13,365 nucleotides of DNA from Euryarchaeota archaeon TMED132 (lineage in GTDB: Archaea > Thermoplasmatota > Poseidoniia > Poseidoniales > Poseidoniaceae): assembly GCA_002172355.2 (NCBI GenBank), contig NHGH02000040.1, positions 45,156 through 58,520 on the forward strand. Direction: 5' to 3'. How positions within the stretch are numbered: position 1 is the first letter of the stretch; each line of letters starts with the position of its first letter. A program made the position numbers and the translations under genes. Positions 1 through 12,995 of the stretch are shown here, one piece after another. A model generated the notes under the pieces. The model ran no database searches. It was given only the letters and a program-made list of their open reading frames with translations, and was not told the origin of the DNA.

Positions 1-225
1 GACAAGCCCGGAGTACTTTCAATGGCTAATGCAGGGCGCAATACTGGAGGCTCTCAATTCTTCCTTACCACTGTAGCAACCCCTTGGTTAAATGGCAATC
101 ACGCCGTATTTGGAGCAGTATCAGAAGGTATGGACGTTGTAAAGGCAATAGAAGGCTGCCAAAAGATGCCAGGGGATAGACCATCTACTCCGCAACAAAT
201 CATCAGATGTTCTGTGGTTAATTGA
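1..225 (+). CDS. Cyclophilin-type peptidyl-prolyl cis-trans isomerase, 3' part
   Basis: This is the C-terminal 74 residues of a cyclophilin, which catalyses cis-trans isomerisation of Xaa-Pro bonds during protein folding. The frame is open from the first base, so the true start lies upstream of the window; the ATG at 22 is internal. The visible part holds the family core MANAG-x-NT-x-GSQFF followed by [10 protein letters not shown]. Against human cyclophilin A this aligns without gaps from M100 to H126: residue F21 here matches F113, W29 matches the cyclosporin-contacting W121, and H34 matches H126. The catalytic arginine of the family (R55) would be in the missing part. No signal peptide can be judged. 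It ends 80 bp before the fumarase fusion gene, from which an AT-rich, promoter-like spacer separates it, so the two are probably not one transcript. Confidence 0.93.
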
Positions 226-296
226 TATTATTTATTAATTAATTATTATAAATGGGCCAGCCATATAATCGATATTATTTAATAATTAATTATTAT
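224..296. repeat. Two 26-bp AT-rich direct repeats with palindromic cores
   Basis: Copies lie at 224-249 and 271-296, start-to-start 47 bp, with a single mismatch (twelfth base, T versus A). Each begins GATATTATTTA and ends TAATTAATTATTAT. Copy 2 contains a perfect 16-bp palindrome at 280-295 (half-site TAATAATT); copy 1 has the same palindrome with one mismatched pair at 233-248. The first base of copy 1 overlaps the cyclophilin stop codon, and copy 2 ends 9 bases before the fumarase ATG. Such paired inverted repeats are the usual operator form for ribbon-helix-helix dimers, and the gene just downstream starts with such a domain. The AT-richness also allows a plain promoter reading, so binding is inferred. 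Confidence 0.6.
274..285 (+). promoter_or_regulatory. Candidate TATA element of the fumarase fusion gene
   Basis: A TATTATTTAATA run is centred about 27 bases before the ATG at 306, the distance expected between an archaeal TATA box and the transcription start. This would give a leaderless or nearly leaderless mRNA, consistent with the lack of a Shine-Dalgarno site before 306. The element lies inside repeat copy 2, so a protein bound there would block TBP. The whole spacer is AT-rich, so the exact box is uncertain. Confidence 0.35.
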
Positions 297-305
297 CCCT
301 TAACT

Positions 306-1901
306 ATGTCAAAGCATAGAGCAGGCGATAGGCGAATAATCAGCATCAGCATTCCAGAAGAGATTGCACTTAGATTAGACAAGAAAGTCGGCAAGGGTAA
401 ACAAGGACGCAGTGCCACAATCAGTCGAATGATTGAGGAATCTCTAAGCCCAACTATTCCAACCTCATCTAAGAAGGAATCACCCGCAAGTTCTCTTGAT
501 TCATTGTCTGGACAAATCCGTGTTGAGTCCGATACAATGGGTGAACTAGAAGTCCCAGCAGACCGATATTATGGTTGTCAAACCGCACGCTCTTTGATTA
601 ATTTCGATATTGGAGAGGATAGAATGCCTCGAGGAGTAATTCGGGCGTTTGGAGTTTTAAAACAGGCAGCAGCAAAGACAAATGTTGCATTAAAGCAATT
701 AGATCCAGAAGTCGGCGACTTGATTATTGCAGCATCTCAAGAAGTAATCCGAGGAGACTTAGATGACCATTTTCCACTTAGAATATGGCAGACTGGTAGC
801 GGCACTCAATCTAATATGAACACCAATGAAGTAATTGCCAATCGTGGAATTGAGATTGCTGGTGGAGTACTTGGTTCAAAGTCTCCAGTACATCCTAATG
901 ACCATGTCAATAGAGCACAGTCGTCTAACGACACATTTCCTACCGCCATGCATATCGCCGGTGCTGAAGCGTTAACTCATGAACTGCTGCCAAGTCTACG
1001 TGAGTTACGTAATGCACTATCTGCTAAGTCCAATGAATGGTCTGATATTGTTAAAATCGGCAGAACTCATCTTATGGATGCAGTACCACTCACTCTTGGG
1101 CAAGAAGCATCAGGTTGGGTTGCTCAATTAGACGCCGACCTAAGAAGAATTGATTTTTCTCTTGATGATTTATTCGAACTCGCATTGGGCGGCACAGCAG
1201 TAGGAACCGGACTTAACACACACCCGTTGTTTGCTCAAATGGTTGCAGATGAAATAGCAAACATCACTGGATTGACATTTATCAGTGCAGAGAATAAATT
1301 CGCCCAATTAGCTGCTCATGATGCAGTAGTAGCTGTAAGTGGCGCTCTAAACACACTAGCAGTAAGTTTAATGAAAATCGCCAATGATATACGTTGGTTA
1401 GGCTCAGGCCCCCGCTGTGGATTAGGAGAATTAGCGCTACCGGCAAATGAACCAGGCTCCTCAATAATGCCAGGAAAAGTCAACCCAACACAAGCAGAAG
1501 CGATGACAATGGTTTGTTGTCAAGTAATGGGCAATCATACTGCTATTACGGTAGGAGGTTCACAAGGAAACTTCGAATTGAATGTCTACAAACCAATGAT
1601 GATTCATAATCTTCTTCACTCAATCAAATTGCTTACCGATGCATGTCGTTCAATGCGAGAGAATTGCGTTGAAGGCCTTGAACCGGTGAAGGAAAACATC
1701 GCTTCTCATCTAGAGAATTCACTGATGCTAGTTACTGCATTGAACAACCAAATCGGGTATGATAAAGCAGCCAAAATCGCAAAGAATGCCCATGAAAAAG
1801 GATTGACTCTAAGAGAATCAGCCCTTGAATTGAAGTATTTGACCAATGAAGAATTTGACGAGTGGGTTAGACCAGAACAAATGATTGGCCCTTCAAAATA
1901 A
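306..1901 (+). CDS. fumC: Class II fumarate hydratase with N-terminal ribbon-helix-helix domain
   Basis: Interconverts fumarate and (S)-malate in the TCA cycle; class II enzymes are cytoplasmic, iron-free homotetramers. The protein is 531 residues from the ATG at 306, which is preferred over the ATG at 252 because the intervening codons encode a low-complexity Y/I/N run that is really the repeat DNA. Residues 9-48 look like a ribbon-helix-helix domain: a beta strand RIISISI, helix [13 protein letters not shown], then helix [14 protein letters not shown] Ser/Pro/Lys linker (49-70) follows, then a complete fumarase from about residue 71. Seen there are [10 protein letters not shown] (163-172), SSNDTFP (206-212), GRTHL with the catalytic-site histidine H255, and the signature [11 protein letters not shown] (384-394). 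The G after MP favours fumarase over aspartase. The enzyme part alone (about 460 residues) is normal family length; the DNA-binding extension is not. The stop codon abuts the stop of the convergent DP2 gene. Confidence 0.93.
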
Positions 1902-4900
1902 TCAGAGGAAGTCTGAGAGCGACATCTGCTTAGCCCGGTCATTCATGAATAGAGAATCGGTACTATTGGACAACCATTCGACATTCTGCCTTGTGTATAC
2001 ATCCACTCCGTATTTTTCCATTACGTGTTGAGTCACCTTGATGTATTTTCTAACCGCACCTTCTGAAACAGTCAATGCTAGATTACCCGAGCATAAATCA
2101 CCTTCAGACTTTGATACGCCAACCGAACTGAGTCCTTTGCCAGAAGCTTTCTTTGGTTGAATACATTTACCAGATAGCGGCATTCTTCGATATGAATGGC
2201 CACATTTTAGACATCGAACCTTTTGCCTTGCAAAAGCATTCAGATTCCCTCTTAAATCAGGCAAGAAGTGAGACCTAATTACACTTGAAGCGACTCTTCT
2301 AACATCAACGCCTCTCAGTCGCAAGCCCAATTCTAACTGCCCCTCCATCTTATCGACCATAGTGTCTAATGTTTTGTAAGCAGATAGTGCAGGGCCGGTT
2401 GAAATTGAATGACAATCATGAGTATATCCATAACCTCTAACAGCCGCGACACTCCCCAATCTTCTCTCGACAAAGTCCATTCTATCTGAACAGGTTTTAG
2501 GATGAGGTTGATTCAATGTCATTTCATAGAAGTCTCTTTCATAGAACCATCCAGAGTCAACATTCAGCGCCTCTTTATCGACTTCTGTTGGATTTAATCT
2601 GGTCGTTAAAACAAGAGGAGCATCCATCTGGCCACCACGATTAGCAGGCAAAATATTTCTGCTGAAGTTCAACAAACCATCCATCAACATCATGATTGCA
2701 TCTTCATCACCATCACAATTTCTTCTTTTTGAGGCATGGAATAGTGGGTGGGCATATCCACCAGAGCAATCGGTCCAGCCGATGATTCTCGACAAAACTC
2801 CACCTGACGTGTGAGGTGCTAATGCGCATATTAGGTGCCCGATGAGGTCATTTGGAGATGCCACATTATAGTAAGGTTCCATACCATAAAACCTGACCAG
2901 TAATTCATCTATGAACTGGGCGGTTCTAACAAAATAATCAGCAGCATTTTTGGCGACAATAAAATCTTGAGGAAACAATTCAAGCATTTGCTCATCACTT
3001 GTCAACTCATTTCCTTCAAAGTCATGAGTATATCCAAGATTGACCAATGTTTTCCAAGACACTTCTACTTCTTTTGGTGTAAAATGAGTCACAGGTACGT
3101 CACTCATATCAAATCTAATAGTTCCATCTCTAAACACAGGTAAATCGTACTTAGCACGTAAAATTCCCTTTTCCAGTGGCTCAGGAGTTTGGTCTTTACT
3201 GGCGATTTTCTTCATGCACTTTATCGTCTTTGGAAGACGATCAATTCCTAGTCTAATTCTAGCATCTTCAAGAGCAGACTCGATTGGAACAGTCATTAAT
3301 TCGCCCCTTCTCCTTCGATTTTGAGCTAGTTCGGTGTTAAACTCAGTTCTACCCCCACAAACTTCTCCAGGAAGACCTTCTCCATACCTGTCTTTTTTAC
3401 GGTGATGGCAGGTGATAAATGGAGACTTTTTCTGACACTTTGTACAAGTTCTAGAGCCTAGTTGAGTACGAATATCTTTCTTTTGAGATGCTACACTCAT
3501 CAATCTCTGATTTCCTCCATTCAATTCGATTGGGAAAAGAATGTGGGCCATAGGATTCATAATTCTTGGAGCGGACTTTTCAGGTCGCCCCATTCTACTA
3601 CCGACTCTTATCGGCGCAGAATGCTCCCATCTTAATGATGAAATTTTTCGTATCTGGGCAATAATACCATCAACTGAATAATCATCTTCATGAATTTGTG
3701 CTGCAAGATACTTTTCCTTATCTTTAGGGCCTTGGTCAGGGATACTCTCAGCAGCCTCTTTACCGATTTTATCGGTTTCAGCGATATTCAATCCCTTTTG
3801 CCTAGCATCGGTCTCGGCAGCGATTCTATTGGTAGCCCGAACTTTTTCTAACTCGCTTTTACGGTGATTTTCTTCATCAAGAACCAACTTTGCCTCGCGA
3901 AGTTGTTCTATTTTGAGATTGAACATTTCGTCAGAATTGGCTATTTTTATTATTTTATTACCATCTAATGAGAACCCAAAGGCTTCCAATACAGCGGGCC
4001 AGCCAGAGGTGATGACAAGGTCATCGCCATCATGATGATGAGCCAGACCTAGAATTAATGCTGAGCCCTTAGCAAGTCCATGCTGTAGTAAAGTCCATGC
4101 TTCATCAATAACATCAGAAAAGATTGGCGCTACTAATTCATTGCCAATTCCGGGACAATTTTCTAACATTTCTTTGGTAATATTTTCCGATGGAATTTCA
4201 TCCATCACTTTACTTGACCAATTTTTGGCACCATCGACAATCCGCAATTGTTTTGCTTCAGGAAGCGGTAATGCTTGTAACGTACCATCGTATTTTTTAA
4301 TGGACTGATTGCTAGTTCCAAACTCTTCAATTTTTGAATTCTCGATAATTTTCAACAGCGAAGGAACCCATTCTATTGGCAGGTCTAAAAACCAAGGATT
4401 ATGCGGCGGCGGAAGAGAGGTGTTGAACCGTTGAGATACCTGCTTTGCTTGAGACCAATTTGGAGTCAACTTAGTCAAGAATCTATGCCATTTACGCCTA
4501 CTTTGAAATTGAATCTCATTATTTTCGATATTTGTTTTATCGGCACCCGGTATTCCAGCGGGACAATCTGTTTTTTCAATATTCATAATATCGCAGAACT
4601 CTGTAACTGCCTCCTTCGAGTTTATTTCTTCAATCAAGTCACTAGCCCACCAATCAAAACCATAACCAGCAGGGACCAATGTTTTGTTATTTTCCATGAA
4701 CTCTCCATAACCAATAACCAATTCTCCATTATCCCATACACACCTAACATCTGAAGCGATAGTAGAGAAACTTTTGATGTCATCAAGCCTTAGAAAACGC
4801 CCATCTTCTAGAATTACCCACGGTCCTTCAGAATCATCGCATGGAGTGATAGCACAAGCTTTTCCTGGGCGTTCGATTTTCATTTGAGTGCCAATTGTAA

Positions 4901-6023
4901 TGAAATCGTCCATCGCCGACATACAGGCTGGATTTACAGAAGCAGCGGCAAGTCCTGAAGGGCGGCTTCGTCCATATCTTAGTCGAAAACCTCCTGCTGC
5001 TTGTGGGCTTCCAAATACTGGTCTTCCTGCGATAATATCGTTCATAAATTTTGTAATGGGCTTAACCTTTCTAGATTTGAAAGGATTCTTTTCCGACTCG
5101 GTTTCCTTTTCCTTACCTTTATTGGCGAACTTTGAGATAAAATCCCATCCTGCAACCTCTAGTCGCTCAGTATGTTTCTGAATTTTTGGTGCTTTCAGGC
5201 ATAAACCTTCACCGATGACAAGTAATACTCCTCCTCTAATTCGTGCTTCGTCAATGTTTCTGACGCGGCCATATCCTGCACATTCGATTCTTTCAGTCGA
5301 CTCACCATTAACCATGACTGGGCAAGCGCGAACAATTTCTTCGATTTCTGTTGGTGATGGCCTATATTGCAGGTTTCCCCGATAAAGCCCAAACTCTTCT
5401 TTCACACGTTCAACTTCAGGGTCTGTAGGTTGATACCTTCCAACATTTAACTCGCGTCTTATCATATCAGCGATTAGTACTGCTAATGCTTGAGCAGTAC
5501 CGCCAGCAGCACGAATGGGTCCAGCGAAATGCACGGATACGAATTGTGAGCCGTCAATATTATTCAACAGCCTTACTTCACTTATTCCTTCCAAAGGTGC
5601 GACTAGTACAGCTTCGGTAAGTATCGCCAACCCTACACGAAGGCCAGCATCAATCGCTGTAACCAAATCAAAGCCTTGTTCTCTAAATCCCTTTGCTACC
5701 GATTGCCCCATCATGATCGATGTGGTTTCTCTATCATGGATTTCCAACATATCTCGAATATCATCTGCTACTTTGTAGTCTCCAAGATACTCGACAAGTA
5801 ATTTTTCAGTCCTACTTGCTAAATCAGAGGCCCTAGGAATTTCAACAAATGGTTGGTGGTCGAGGTTTAATGAACGAGCCTTTTCTGCAACTCTATATGC
5901 GTCATCAGCCCTCTCATCCATCCAATTTTGGTAATTTTCCATTTCACGCTCTAACCGAGGGATATCCAGCCCAATGAGCGGATTATGAGCGCTCAAACCA
6001 GGTGAACCATTATCAGATGACAT
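1902..6023 (-). CDS. polC: DNA polymerase II (PolD) large subunit DP2
   Basis: Catalytic polymerase subunit of the archaeal replicative polymerase PolD, which works with the exonuclease subunit DP1 (not in this window). The product is 1373 residues from the ATG at 6023, which has a weak AGGGG site about 10 bases upstream; an in-frame GTG at 6047 would add 8 residues. Homology begins near residue 24 (LEREMENYQNW). Recognisable blocks: GPIRAAGGTAQA (168-179), RVGSRMGRPEK (806-816), a CxxC zinc knuckle at C860/C863, the catalytic NCDGDEDA with D1104 and D1106, and a C-terminal zinc module opening with C1271/C1274. The last eight residues QMSLSDFL match a PCNA-interacting (PIP) motif. A charged, probably helical stretch at about 700-765 precedes the conserved RMGRPEK block. 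No intein is present, although DP2 genes often carry one. The gene is convergent with fumarase with zero spacing and divergent from pyrE. Confidence 0.97.
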   Translation of the reverse strand: MSSDNGSPGLSAHNPLIGLDIPRLEREMENYQNWMDERADDAYRVAEKARSLNLDHQPFVEIPRASDLASRTEKLLVEYLGDYKVADDIRDMLEIHDRETTSIMMGQSVAKGFREQGFDLVTAIDAGLRVGLAILTEAVLVAPLEGISEVRLLNNIDGSQFVSVHFAGPIRAAGGTAQALAVLIADMIRRELNVGRYQPTDPEVERVKEEFGLYRGNLQYRPSPTEIEEIVRACPVMVNGESTERIECAGYGRVRNIDEARIRGGVLLVIGEGLCLKAPKIQKHTERLEVAGWDFISKFANKGKEKETESEKNPFKSRKVKPITKFMNDIIAGRPVFGSPQAAGGFRLRYGRSRPSGLAAASVNPACMSAMDDFITIGTQMKIERPGKACAITPCDDSEGPWVILEDGRFLRLDDIKSFSTIASDVRCVWDNGELVIGYGEFMENNKTLVPAGYGFDWWASDLIEEINSKEAVTEFCDIMNIEKTDCPAGIPGADKTNIENNEIQFQSRRKWHRFLTKLTPNWSQAKQVSQRFNTSLPPPHNPWFLDLPIEWVPSLLKIIENSKIEEFGTSNQSIKKYDGTLQALPLPEAKQLRIVDGAKNWSSKVMDEIPSENITKEMLENCPGIGNELVAPIFSDVIDEAWTLLQHGLAKGSALILGLAHHHDGDDLVITSGWPAVLEAFGFSLDGNKIIKIANSDEMFNLKIEQLREAKLVLDEENHRKSELEKVRATNRIAAETDARQKGLNIAETDKIGKEAAESIPDQGPKDKEKYLAAQIHEDDYSVDGIIAQIRKISSLRWEHSAPIRVGSRMGRPEKSAPRIMNPMAHILFPIELNGGNQRLMSVASQKKDIRTQLGSRTCTKCQKKSPFITCHHRKKDRYGEGLPGEVCGGRTEFNTELAQNRRRRGELMTVPIESALEDARIRLGIDRLPKTIKCMKKIASKDQTPEPLEKGILRAKYDLPVFRDGTIRFDMSDVPVTHFTPKEVEVSWKTLVNLGYTHDFEGNELTSDEQMLELFPQDFIVAKNAADYFVRTAQFIDELLVRFYGMEPYYNVASPNDLIGHLICALAPHTSGGVLSRIIGWTDCSGGYAHPLFHASKRRNCDGDEDAIMMLMDGLLNFSRNILPANRGGQMDAPLVLTTRLNPTEVDKEALNVDSGWFYERDFYEMTLNQPHPKTCSDRMDFVERRLGSVAAVRGYGYTHDCHSISTGPALSAYKTLDTMVDKMEGQLELGLRLRGVDVRRVASSVIRSHFLPDLRGNLNAFARQKVRCLKCGHSYRRMPLSGKCIQPKKASGKGLSSVGVSKSEGDLCSGNLALTVSEGAVRKYIKVTQHVMEKYGVDVYTRQNVEWLSNSTDSLFMNDRAKQMSLSDFL

Positions 6024-6110
6024 ACCAATAAAACCCCTGCTTAACACTCGTTTATCAAGAGCGCCCTATCTTATCGCTCGGTTTACACAACAAAGAGTTA
6101 TTGTTCAAAA

Positions 6111-6771: not shown

Positions 6772-8061
6772 ATGGAAGATATAATGCGCCCATTGGATGC
6801 AAAATCCGATGGTCTAGTTGAATCGATGAAAGACCCAACCTCTGCTGAAGGAATGATATTTTTCCATGCAGATGAAGGCAAGCCGCTTGCAACACCTTGG
6901 CAAGTAGCGATTTCTAGGGCGATTCTACTTAATCAAAAATCACTTCCAGAAGGCCACATTTTGGATTGTGCATGTGGAAGCGGGATACAAATCGCCGCAT
7001 ATTCTGCAATTTTCAAAAGACCAGCCTTAGGAATTGAACTCAATCCACACCGAGCAAGAGCCAGCGCCGTTAATTTTAGGAATATTTTCAAATTAAGGGG
7101 CGGAGATACAGCAAATATTCTCCAAAAGAGTCTATTTTTGGCAGCTGATGGTAGAGACGGCTCAGGCGCTATTGAGAAACTGGCAAATGCAAATAATGAA
7201 CAAGCAAAGATCGCTCTTCTTCATCTCGACCCCGCAAGGCCCCGAAATAGCCGTTCGCATTCTCTCGATGAAATGAAACCGCGATTAGATGAGATATTTG
7301 ATGGCTGGAAAGACCACCTTGTACAGACAAAAGAGGGCCCATGCATACTGCTTGACCTTTCACCAAGACTTTCACATAACCAGCGACTAGAAGTTGAGAA
7401 CATAGTAGAGACTTATTGGCCAGAAATCACCAAAACTTGGACTTGGACATCGCGTGGAAAAGGCCGCGTCGATAGGCTTGCGTTATGGATCGGAGGCATA
7501 GCCAATAAACACATATCGAGGCGCTTTGTTCGTATTTCTCCTGACTTGAAACAGGAACCTTTCATTATCGAAGGAGGACTAACTCTAGATTTAGGCGAAG
7601 ATATTCCAGAATCTAGTCACAGAATGCCTAAGAGAGGAGAATATGTTACGATTTTAGATTCCGCCTTAGTCGAATGCGGTTTAGCAAAATATTGGCTTGC
7701 AGAGCAAATTGATGGTGAAAAAACCTACTGGGTAGAGTCCACTGGCAGAAGGCCACAAATACACCACGAACAGAAATTAAACTTGGAGGATAATTCAGAA
7801 AAAACATTGGTACAAGCATCAGGACGAATTGTGGAAATTTTCCATCAACAATTGACTCCGGAAACGGTTGATGGCTTTGTAGAACAAGCCATCGCCAACG
7901 ATATTAAGAAAATCACAATTAGAACTCCACTTGAACCATCCTTACACCCTAAAATCCAAGGCTCTTTTGACCGCCAATTGGCTCGCCGTAGCGGTAAAAG
8001 GGACGGATTTATTATTCAACACCCCAATTCAGAAATGAGCATGCTTTGTGTTATTGAATGA
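6772..8061 (+). CDS. Class I SAM-dependent methyltransferase, THUMP-like family
   Basis: A 429-residue protein with a Rossmann-type methyltransferase core. Motif I is LDCACGSG (64-71), followed by the acidic end of the second strand in GIELNP (E89). HLDPARP (151-157) occupies the usual motif IV position where nucleic-acid methyltransferases carry D-P-P-x. A later LLDLSPRLSHNQR segment and a C-terminal region of some 200 residues resemble bacterial THUMP-like-domain methyltransferases (the PG_1098-type family), whose substrate is not firmly known; RNA is the likeliest. An N-terminal helical part (about 1-55) precedes the core, as in that family. The start is supported by TGAGGA at 6760-6765, six bases before the ATG. 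The gene lies 12 bp behind pyrE and probably shares its promoter. The fold call is firm, the family call moderate, and an RNA substrate is inference. Confidence 0.8.
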   Translation: MEDIMRPLDAKSDGLVESMKDPTSAEGMIFFHADEGKPLATPWQVAISRAILLNQKSLPEGHILDCACGSGIQIAAYSAIFKRPALGIELNPHRARASAVNFRNIFKLRGGDTANILQKSLFLAADGRDGSGAIEKLANANNEQAKIALLHLDPARPRNSRSHSLDEMKPRLDEIFDGWKDHLVQTKEGPCILLDLSPRLSHNQRLEVENIVETYWPEITKTWTWTSRGKGRVDRLALWIGGIANKHISRRFVRISPDLKQEPFIIEGGLTLDLGEDIPESSHRMPKRGEYVTILDSALVECGLAKYWLAEQIDGEKTYWVESTGRRPQIHHEQKLNLEDNSEKTLVQASGRIVEIFHQQLTPETVDGFVEQAIANDIKKITIRTPLEPSLHPKIQGSFDRQLARRSGKRDGFIIQHPNSEMSMLCVIE

Positions 8062-10796: not shown

Positions 10797-12554
10797 ATGA
10801 ATTTAGCCCCTAATGATTATGACTTCGGTGACGCATCGAATTATTTCTTTGCAACAACCATCACTTGTGACAATGAAGAAGCACGAAAAATGTATGCACT
10901 TGCCTTTGGGCACATGTTGAATTATAACCATGAAGAAGCGATTGCATGTTTTAGTAAATGTGCTGAATTGGACCCAACCTGTGCTATGGCATATTGGGGA
11001 ATTGCTTATTGTGTATCATCCAATTATAATTGGAGTCCAGGACTAGGTTCAGGACACGATTACATTCAAACAGCAATAACTCTGAAAGACGGTTGTTCTG
11101 AATTGGAAAAAGATCTAATCGATGCATTGGCACAACGACACTCTGCAGAAGCACGTGACGCAGCAGACCCAACAGTCCTCAACATGGGTAATAGCCCAGA
11201 ACTAAATGTCGCATTTGCAGAAGCCATGGCGCCTCTTTACGAAAAATATCGAGGAAATCTTGATGTCACCGCAGTATATGTTGAAGCTCTTATGAATTTG
11301 AAGGCTTGGCAACTATGGGATAAGAATACAGCCACAGGAGAAATAACTCCTGCAGATGATAATACATTGCTACTAGTCAAGGTTATGGAAGAGGCATTTG
11401 AGTCAGTTGAAGGTGCAAAAGAGCACATTGCACTATGTCACTTATACTGTCACGCTTTAGAATTATCACCATTCCCAGAACGCGCATTACCAGCAGCAGA
11501 TATTCTAAGAACCGCAATGCCAGGATTAGGGCACTTGGTCCACATGCCATCTCACATCGATGCTTGGGTAGGACAATGGAAAGAAGCAGTAGATTGTAAC
11601 ATTGCAGCTGTAAAGGCAGATGACCGTTATGTTGAATTAACCGGAAATGAATCCCAGTTTTACAAATTCTACCGTATGCACAATCATCACTTCGTAGTTT
11701 GGTGTGCTATGTTTGAAGGGCAATATGAAATCGCTTTGAAATATGCTAGAAAGGCCGTAGCAACATTGCCAGCAGGTGATGAGAACCATGGAGTAAACTT
11801 CATGCTAGCCGGTATAATCCCAATGGGGGCAATTTTCCTAGAATCATATGTCACTATGCCTTGGCACGTTATGATTAGATTTGGTAAGTGGGACGAGATA
11901 ATTGCTGAACCAATGTACACCGACAAGGATGTATTCCCAGCTACTATCGCTACACAACACTATGCCAGAGGAGTCGCATATGCTTCCAAGGGAATGGTCC
12001 CTGAAGCAGAAGCAGAACAGGCTTTATTCAATCAAGCACTAGAAAATCCAGCCCTTGCAGGTCGCGTATTACATAATAATTTGATGTATCAAGACCCAAG
12101 TGAAGGCCCATGTATCCTTCTTGTTAACGCTGCTGTATTAGACGGTGAAATTGAATATAGAAAGCAATTTTTAGCCAAAGCCAGAGGAGAAGCCTCAGAT
12201 TTCTCCGCTGCCTTTGACCACCTACGCCGTGGTGTAGATCTTTCACTAAATCTAGCATATAACGAACCCTGGGGTCAAATGCAACCAGTACGACACATCC
12301 TTGGAGCATTGCTTCACGAACAAGGCGAAATCGAAGAAGCCGAAGCAGTCTACCGTGCAGATATCAAACTGTGGAAAGATAACATGTGGGGCCTACTTGG
12401 TCTGAAACTTTGTCTTGAAGCTCGCGGAGATGCGCCAGAGGAACTTGCTGAAGTTACAGCATTATTCAATGAGAGAAGTTCTCGTGCAGATATTGTTCCA
12501 GCAAAGACTTGTTTCTGTGCACAAGACAGCGTCGAAAAGAGCTGCTGTGACTGA
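10797..12554 (+). CDS. Tetratricopeptide-repeat protein, 'HMPSHI' family, function unknown
   Basis: A 585-residue, mainly helical protein with no signal peptide or membrane segment. An N-terminal TPR unit (about 29-72) has the family pattern NHEEAIACFSKCAELDP then CAMAYWGIA. The central block holds CHLYCHALE (214-222), then GHLVHMPSHIDAWVGQW (245-261), then YRMHNHHF (292-299). These are recognisable from a widespread bacterial TPR family whose activity is not established. The clustered H215, H219, E222, H246, H249, H253 and H296-H298 could form a metal site; this is inference. Further TPR-like helices fill 390-550. The C-terminus ends with a cysteine cluster, CFC (572-574) and CC (583-584). 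No Shine-Dalgarno site is evident; the ATG is the first in frame after the palindromic promoter. An out-of-frame ATG at 10771 opens only 12 codons. It follows the ribosomal operon but has its own promoter-like spacer. Confidence 0.88.
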   Translation: MNLAPNDYDFGDASNYFFATTITCDNEEARKMYALAFGHMLNYNHEEAIACFSKCAELDPTCAMAYWGIAYCVSSNYNWSPGLGSGHDYIQTAITLKDGCSELEKDLIDALAQRHSAEARDAADPTVLNMGNSPELNVAFAEAMAPLYEKYRGNLDVTAVYVEALMNLKAWQLWDKNTATGEITPADDNTLLLVKVMEEAFESVEGAKEHIALCHLYCHALELSPFPERALPAADILRTAMPGLGHLVHMPSHIDAWVGQWKEAVDCNIAAVKADDRYVELTGNESQFYKFYRMHNHHFVVWCAMFEGQYEIALKYARKAVATLPAGDENHGVNFMLAGIIPMGAIFLESYVTMPWHVMIRFGKWDEIIAEPMYTDKDVFPATIATQHYARGVAYASKGMVPEAEAEQALFNQALENPALAGRVLHNNLMYQDPSEGPCILLVNAAVLDGEIEYRKQFLAKARGEASDFSAAFDHLRRGVDLSLNLAYNEPWGQMQPVRHILGALLHEQGEIEEAEAVYRADIKLWKDNMWGLLGLKLCLEARGDAPEELAEVTALFNERSSRADIVPAKTCFCAQDSVEKSCCD

Positions 12555-12656: not shown

Positions 12657-12995
12657 ATGAAAGCGCCATCAGTTATTCGGATGTGGATTACCAACAAAAA
12701 TAACAGGGAAATTACGGCCGCTATGAGTGAATCTATGGTGACCTTTCTTTCAATTGCAATTGAAAACGGTTGCATTGGTTCAACATTTGCTGAAGATGAC
12801 GAACGCATCATTGTTTACACTAAATGGTCAGACGAGGTTACATTGGAGCAGTTTCGTTCGTCGAAAGAATATCACACTCAAGAAGGAAACATCATTCAAT
12901 CATTTATTGCCGCAGGTTTCGAAATCCCTGGCGATATATTGTTTAATTCAACTGCAAAAATTTTGTTCAGTAACAGATCGGAATCAGCCCAATAA
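12657..12995 (+). CDS. Small ABM-like (dimeric alpha/beta barrel) protein
   Basis: A 112-residue soluble protein. The layout of a beta strand (VIRMWIT), a helix (REITAAMSESMVTFLSIAIEN), GCIGSTFAEDDERIIVYTKWSD, and EQFRSSKEYH then a last strand (AKILFS) resembles antibiotic-biosynthesis-monooxygenase (ABM) domains. In these the tryptophan-bearing strand and the following 'A-x-R-S-S-x-x-F/H' helix are typical. Members include quinol monooxygenases and heme-degrading enzymes, but many have no known substrate, and no assignment is made here. The first ATG is used; a later one at 12723 would cut into the first helix. With an AT-rich box 27 bases upstream and no Shine-Dalgarno site, a leaderless transcript is likely. 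Fold call moderate, function unknown. Confidence 0.65.
   Translation: MKAPSVIRMWITNKNNREITAAMSESMVTFLSIAIENGCIGSTFAEDDERIIVYTKWSDEVTLEQFRSSKEYHTQEGNIIQSFIAAGFEIPGDILFNSTAKILFSNRSESAQ

Follow-up and report, generated by a model that had tools for sequence, protein, structure and literature searches.

A class II fumarase with a fused ribbon-helix-helix domain in Poseidoniales, and a near gene-specific upstream element that comes and goes with the domain

That an enzyme can repress its own gene by means of a fused ribbon-helix-helix (RHH) domain is already known from PutA, in which, according to the published description (PMC5293562), the RHH domain acts as an autogenous repressor and proline switches the protein between a DNA-bound repressor and a membrane-associated enzyme. 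In the present study, we describe a protein in which an RHH domain precedes a class II fumarase and which is encoded in the window, i.e., the whole 13,365-nucleotide stretch of DNA that was analysed, from a genome of the order Poseidoniales. This archaeal order is uncultivated and occurs widely in the ocean. The class II fumarase is a tetramer with active sites built from several subunits, and RHH proteins bind DNA as dimers, the RHH strand being formed only in the dimer. No described fumarase of the RHH-fused kind was found in the papers searched, and the literature searched yielded no paper on fumarase together with ribbon-helix-helix or on Poseidoniales together with fumarase. The parts are already named in existing annotation, where one relative is entered as a class II fumarate hydratase (Candidatus Poseidonia) and two partial pieces as ribbon-helix-helix domain-containing proteins.

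The fusion, as translated from the window, consists of 531 amino acids in a single open frame from the ATG at 306 to the stop at 1901. The first-pass annotation of this DNA had read an uninterrupted frame from this ATG as an RHH domain, a Ser/Pro/Lys linker, and a class II fumarase, and this reading is borne out by the open frame, Pfam, and TIGR00979 and, with respect to the linker, by the translation. The frame remains open up to an in-frame ATG at 252, from which a version of 549 amino acids would result. Because a 99%-identical relative (L040) is without Met at the position of ATG 252 and the Met equivalent to ATG 306 is retained across the fused loci, the start of the fusion is likely at 306. 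A cyclophilin-type gene is located within 3 kb upstream of the fumarase in 76 of 81 loci, being in some of them just about 50% identical or at least 2 kb away, so that the fused and unfused genes appear to lie in a common gene neighbourhood. Elsewhere in the window, a 429-residue protein (6772–8061), methyltransferase-like by eye, and a 112-residue protein (12657–12995) had no Pfam match at E ≤ 0.001, and a 585-residue TPR-repeat protein with a cysteine-containing C-terminal tail (10797–12554) is encoded downstream of genes for ribosomal proteins and RNA polymerase subunits.

Table 1. Coordinates of the features discussed (window positions, except for the last row) and the basis of each.
Feature	Position	Strand	Basis
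RHH-fumarase fusion gene	306..1901	+	Open frame; start backed by relatives
RHH domain, residues 9–48	330..449	+	Pfam RHH_1 on 12–45; 18 invariant columns; dN/dS 0.05
Ser/Pro/Lys-rich linker, residues 49–70	450..515	+	dN/dS 0.30; mean pairwise identity 16%
Class II fumarase part, residues 71–531	516..1898	+	TIGR00979 763.9 bits; solved class II fumarases
Proximal element copy, candidate operator over the expected TATA position	271..296	+	Pattern 274–295; palindrome 279–296
Distal element copy	227..249	+	Pattern 227–248, 1 mismatch; palindrome 232–249
Cyclophilin-type peptidyl-prolyl isomerase gene, 3' end	1..225	+	Pfam Pro_isomerase 76.4 bits
DNA polymerase II large subunit DP2 gene, convergent	1902..6047	-	Pfam PolC_DP2 domains
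GTRCGAACKGTGAAGAAGTWC element, unfused congeners	e.g., L023–L027, L029–L033; G015:C1:128532–128552		5' of plain fumarase

Residues 72–528 scored 763.9 bits for the TIGR00979 fumC_II equivalog, over its cut-off of 664.75 bits, and residues 70–530 aligned unbroken to a solved class II fumarase. The segments TGSGTQ, HPND, and GSSxMPxKxN, which we take to be the class II signature and active-site segments, are present in the translation, invariant in 29 aligned sequences, and aligned identically in the best solved match. An RHH match within residues 1–60, the search for which had been proposed in the first-pass annotation, was also found. Residues 12–45 match Pfam RHH_1 (PF01402), with a score of 17.7 bits for the whole protein, which is below the cut-off of 20.5 bits, scores of 20.9 and 22.1 bits, slightly over it, for N-terminal pieces of the fusion, and a score of 21.0 bits in the own-genome search. 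Relatives scanned singly scored 18.7 to 26.2 bits, and when the domains of three relatives were rescanned, one was over the curated cut-off and two were under it. In an alignment of 30 N-terminal domains, which were those of the window and of 29 of the 44 fused loci, all 30 matched RHH_1 at E ≤ 0.1 (best, 7.5e-6), and 18 columns were invariant, including R9, R10, S15, P17, E18, and the turn G34-R35-S36-A37, with S13 being nearly so. S13 and S15 are presumably the polar positions of the strand that face DNA in RHH proteins. The fusion was the sole RHH_1 match at E ≤ 0.001 in the own genome, which is 75% complete. A single-chain model of the RHH domain had helices at residues 18–28 and 35–47 and no strand (pLDDT 69.6), and a structure search with it gave no significant match; the profile of the RHH alignment had one match only among solved structures, at chance level (E 0.36). 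The full-length model had a pLDDT of 78.6, with blocks of residues 1–50 averaging just 37–58 and with low confidence at residues 49–61 of the fast-evolving linker. Three loci of one genus (L064, L065, and L168) have a diverged RHH domain, with KHN at its start and RSAWIVQAI in helix 2, and carry the upstream element described below only in part; it is possible that domain and site changed jointly in them.

Selection was evaluated by Nei-Gojobori counts for 14 informative pairs out of 43 sequences, pairs being kept only when the fumarase pS was between 0.15 and 0.62. Expressed as the ratio of corrected means, dN/dS came to 0.05 in the RHH part and 0.03 in the fumarase part, with 0.30 in the linker between them. 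By this measure, the RHH part is under purifying selection and, hence, a selected domain rather than a leftover. The domain might have been selected for assembly, joining tetramers or partners into larger complexes with DNA binding gone. RHH domains dimerise, and that of PutA mediates dimerisation in the published account (PMC5293562); a linker as long and variable as the one observed would also suit such a function. However, S13, S15, and the turn GRSA are kept, and there is an upstream element linked to the domain, by which a role limited to assembly is made quite improbable.

Among the 389 sampled genomes of the phylum, 91 matched an RHH-domain profile at E ≤ 0.01, of which 78 belong to two families of the order Poseidoniales, presumably Poseidoniaceae and Thalassarchaeaceae, and the remaining 13 matched it only at 4.9e-6 or weaker. 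The domain was also seen on many metagenome contigs. The fusion was not found outside Poseidoniales in the searches made, and a set of 66 genomes from beyond the order, picked by number (one of the same class, 65 from the rest of the phylum), included 24 with a fumarase match of more than 280 bits, none of these matches starting before residue 56. In a search across the order, 313 of its 318 genomes had some match. The best 80 of at least 525 related loci comprised 44 fused and 36 unfused fumarases, and the unfused ones were present, among the matches listed, in the window's own genus and several other genera.

To place the two kinds of gene, a tree was built from 107 fumarase domains without the RHH part, i.e., 50 fused and 47 unfused ones of the order and 10 outgroups. 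Left out before were L082–L121, L152, and L153, by number, as re-fetched or overlapping records (copies presumed), together with loci without the gene-finding motif, 9 duplicates, and 2 short rows; as a result of the requirement for the motif, 10 of the 24 outgroup fumarases stayed. In this tree, a quick one without bootstrap and with some long branches, the order forms one clade (support 99), and the fused state requires 7 changes, 6 of which are forced by well-supported branches. Together with the unfused state of the outgroups, these changes fit a single gain of the fusion at the base of the order, followed by about six losses. Relatives in which the fumarase starts only near residue 71, which the first-pass annotation had held to speak against a genuine fusion, do therefore exist, in 36 of the 80 loci and even in the own genus, but as they are read on the tree as repeated losses, they do not mark the fusion as an artefact. 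An artefact, be it a wrong start, an assembly error, or a chance extension, could still be suspected because the frame is open to ATG 252 and some bins have two fumarase genes. This suspicion is hardly credible against the presence of the domain in 78 of the 389 phylum genomes, all in the two families of the order, and on metagenome contigs, and against the purifying selection on it; a wrong start or a chance extension is ruled out by the relatives and the selection. The bins with two fumarase genes include G255 (L121 and L179), G292 (L156 and L180), and G024 (L109 and L200). In G255, one is fused and one is unfused, and since the unfused copy is identical to that of L029, a mixed bin or transfer is possible.

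The RHH domain was also sought apart from this enzyme. In word-based region searches with two diverged RHH domains, which reach only proteins sharing exact words and having a similar length, so that distant fusions may escape, 33 of 108 and 85 of 89 candidates matched, all with Lyase_1; the same RHH on other enzymes was found in none of these 33 and 85 matches. A search with a typed 50-residue RHH consensus gave 50 short proteins, of which the three with a source name were partial Poseidonia entries. The other 47 were presumed to be pieces of this gene on short contigs, L200 being a contig end of such a kind. On this presumption, stand-alone copies of the domain were rejected. When the 600 nt 5' of unfused genes were scanned for motifs left over from the RHH domain, there were three matches, in the two loci L170 and L175, and these looked like chance.

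The fused gene of the window is preceded by an AT-rich, partly palindromic element of 22 bp that ends 10 nt 5' of ATG 306 and has a distal copy 47 bp further upstream; a second copy is present also in L002, L003, and L040. Across the window's clade (10 fused genes, counting that of the window), the 22 consecutive positions from −35 to −14, which read GATATTATTTAATAATTAATTA, are invariant. The commonest base reaches a mean frequency of 0.96 between −38 and −11, compared with 0.53 between −60 and −39 and 0.63 between −10 and −1. The palindrome was clear in this clade and few others in a test over 50 fused genes. At up to 3 mismatches, the pattern ATTATTTAATAATTAATTATTA matched the 1.5-Mb own genome just twice, at 227–248 and 274–295 of the window, and its reversed control matched once. 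The pattern was found in all 13 fused congeners, where each of the 16 matches is directly 5' of the fused gene, and was absent from 19 of the 21 unfused congeners; in the remaining two, G294 and G280, the matches had 3 mismatches and were not on the contig with the fumarase. The reversed control had 5 matches across the 34 congeners.

In many other fused lineages, only a core of the element is left, with symmetry no higher than that of shuffles. Searching the near upstream region of the fused genes for TTTATTAA/TTTAATAA gave, in 50 of 50, a best match that agreed at 7 or 8 of 8 positions and started at −26 to −32. TTTA[TA]TAA or TTTATTAT was present within −48 to −8 in 47 of 50 fused genes, whereas it was present in none of 47 unfused genes, the upstream region of which is altogether different; the fused loci L057, L074, and L160 have near variants of the core. 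Core and domain agreed in 4.9 of five independent fused/unfused pairs on well-supported branches (mean over random pairings), where, with just five pairs, a sign test cannot fall below 0.0625. In 28 genomes of other lineages, the pattern TTTATTAATAASTAATTA (up to 2 mismatches) gave 21 matches, 18 of which were located no more than 230 nt 5' of an RHH-fumarase start, including three in G098, one site on both strands in G061, and one before a contig-end fragment in G024. It was at the gene in 15 of the 23 fused genomes and missing there in 8, and none of the 5 unfused genomes had any match; the three matches away from the fumarase were in G049 (once) and G112 (twice). Because the reversed control also gave 21 matches, mostly in the AT-rich genomes G390, G206, and G306, it is the placement and not the count that speaks for the element. 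The upstream region in G098 (L201) has three element copies with repeated flanks and a run of N 5' of one fused gene, which could be either real repeats or assembly trouble.

The element could be merely an unusual ancestral promoter, with the RHH domain binding DNA elsewhere or non-specifically, as a nucleoid tether or in a DNA-damage role, which some fumarases have. The core sits at the place expected for the TATA box of a leaderless transcript, starting within the same seven positions in every fused gene, and the unfused genes have changed the upstream region wholly and have their own conserved element. This element, GTRCGAACKGTGAAGAAGTWC, was directly 5' of the plain fumarase in all 12 unfused congeners searched and absent in all 3 fused genomes, with 4 more 3-mismatch matches elsewhere and 11 reversed-control matches; the existence of a gene-specific element in unfused congeners means that such an element alone is no proof of RHH binding. 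If the RHH domain had been lost by deletions also removing the promoter, the two would have been lost jointly without a functional tie. On the other side, the core was present at −34 to −18 in none of 59 other genes of the own genome and none of 52 genes of the sister family, the starts in this sample being the first ATG of each frame and hence noisy, and elsewhere in the loci it occurred 37 times in 632,660 positions (45 fused loci) and 7 times in 482,478 positions (36 unfused loci). Judged by these low counts, the core is not a common promoter word, and a generic-promoter reading of the element was rejected as unsupported by other promoters or by the core counts in the loci. Moreover, the conserved block in the window's clade exceeds a TATA box and is palindromic, and the element is near-unique in the genome. 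We regard the ancestral-promoter explanation as unlikely. The two forms of GTRCGAACKGTGAAGAAGTWC keep a short stem by eye, CTG/CAG versus CGG/CCG. A perfect inverted repeat, TTCTCTC-GTA-GAGAGAA, was seen 5' of the unfused fumarase in L045, L047, L048, L052, and L055 and is perhaps the site of another regulator.

Taken together, the fusion is conserved, and a near gene-specific element comes and goes with its RHH domain. We consider it rather probable that the fusion is both a class II fumarase and a site-specific DNA-binding protein that acts on its own promoter by autogenous repression of the PutA type. Autogenous control is argued from three points, namely that element and domain have repeatedly changed together, that the conserved block is palindromic, and that the domain is of the RHH kind. 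In the proposed mechanism, the four N-terminal RHH domains of the fumarase tetramer would pair into two RHH dimers, which would occupy the AT-rich element at about −37 to −11. If a leaderless start is assumed, the element overlaps the place expected for the TATA box; no paper on leaderless transcripts, Thermoplasmata, and the TATA box together was found in the literature searched. The binding could then block TBP, TFB, and RNA polymerase and thereby keep the amount of fumarase constant. The fusion might instead activate its own promoter or have another gene as its main target, for which the three matches of the weaker pattern away from the fumarase could be sites. However, the location of the element between about −37 and −11, across the expected TATA box, suits blocking better than activating, and the strong pattern has no further site in the own genome; we consider activation or another main target very improbable.

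The first-pass annotation had also suggested a metabolite-responsive DNA-binding enzyme. The architecture on which this idea was based has been confirmed, and its DNA-binding part is strengthened by the element that travels with the fusion. With respect to the metabolite, we offer only as a doubtful but possible extension of autogenous repression that the fumarase senses its substrates and thereby switches its gene, with the occupancy of the active sites by fumarate or malate shifting the spacing of the RHH dimers so that the element is released or gripped. With exactly two RHH dimers, one tetramer would suffice for a single operator that takes two dimers. Such a switch, if true, would be a single-gene metabolic feedback loop in widespread marine archaea. 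The roughly six apparent losses of the RHH domain, together with the differing upstream sequence of the unfused genes, provide natural matched pairs for the gain, loss, and replacement of autoregulation, and the protein and the short element are suited to a simple binding assay.

Among known systems, trifunctional PutA (e.g., of Escherichia coli) is the closest in design, having an N-terminal RHH domain on a metabolic enzyme and being an autogenous transcriptional repressor in the published description (PMC5293562). The fusion differs in that it is an unrelated class II fumarase with a hypothetical switch, whereas PutA is a proline dehydrogenase and P5C dehydrogenase that moves to the membrane; the Pfam scan of the fusion gave Lyase_1, FumaraseC_C, and RHH_1 only, and without the two dehydrogenase domains it is not a PutA. 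For a PutA-like binding site at the own promoter, the dedicated upstream element linked to the domain is a candidate. The way of working would be alike only if autogenous repression is right; in that case, an unrelated enzyme would work as PutA does, and the same design would have arisen separately for a core step of the citric-acid cycle. Compared with FumC/fumC_II proteins, the fusion shares the enzyme part, being aligned to solved fumarases from about residue 70, but none of the 60 solved sequences listed matches before residue 53, which leaves the RHH part uncovered, and the plain fumarases of sister lineages do not have this part. As to NikR/CopG-type archaeal regulators, the fused-domain profile picks up two proteins in other genomes of the phylum (L196 and L197) that carry RHH_1 and NikR_C; in these, however, the partner of the RHH domain is a metal-binding sensor domain, and in the fusion, it is an enzyme.
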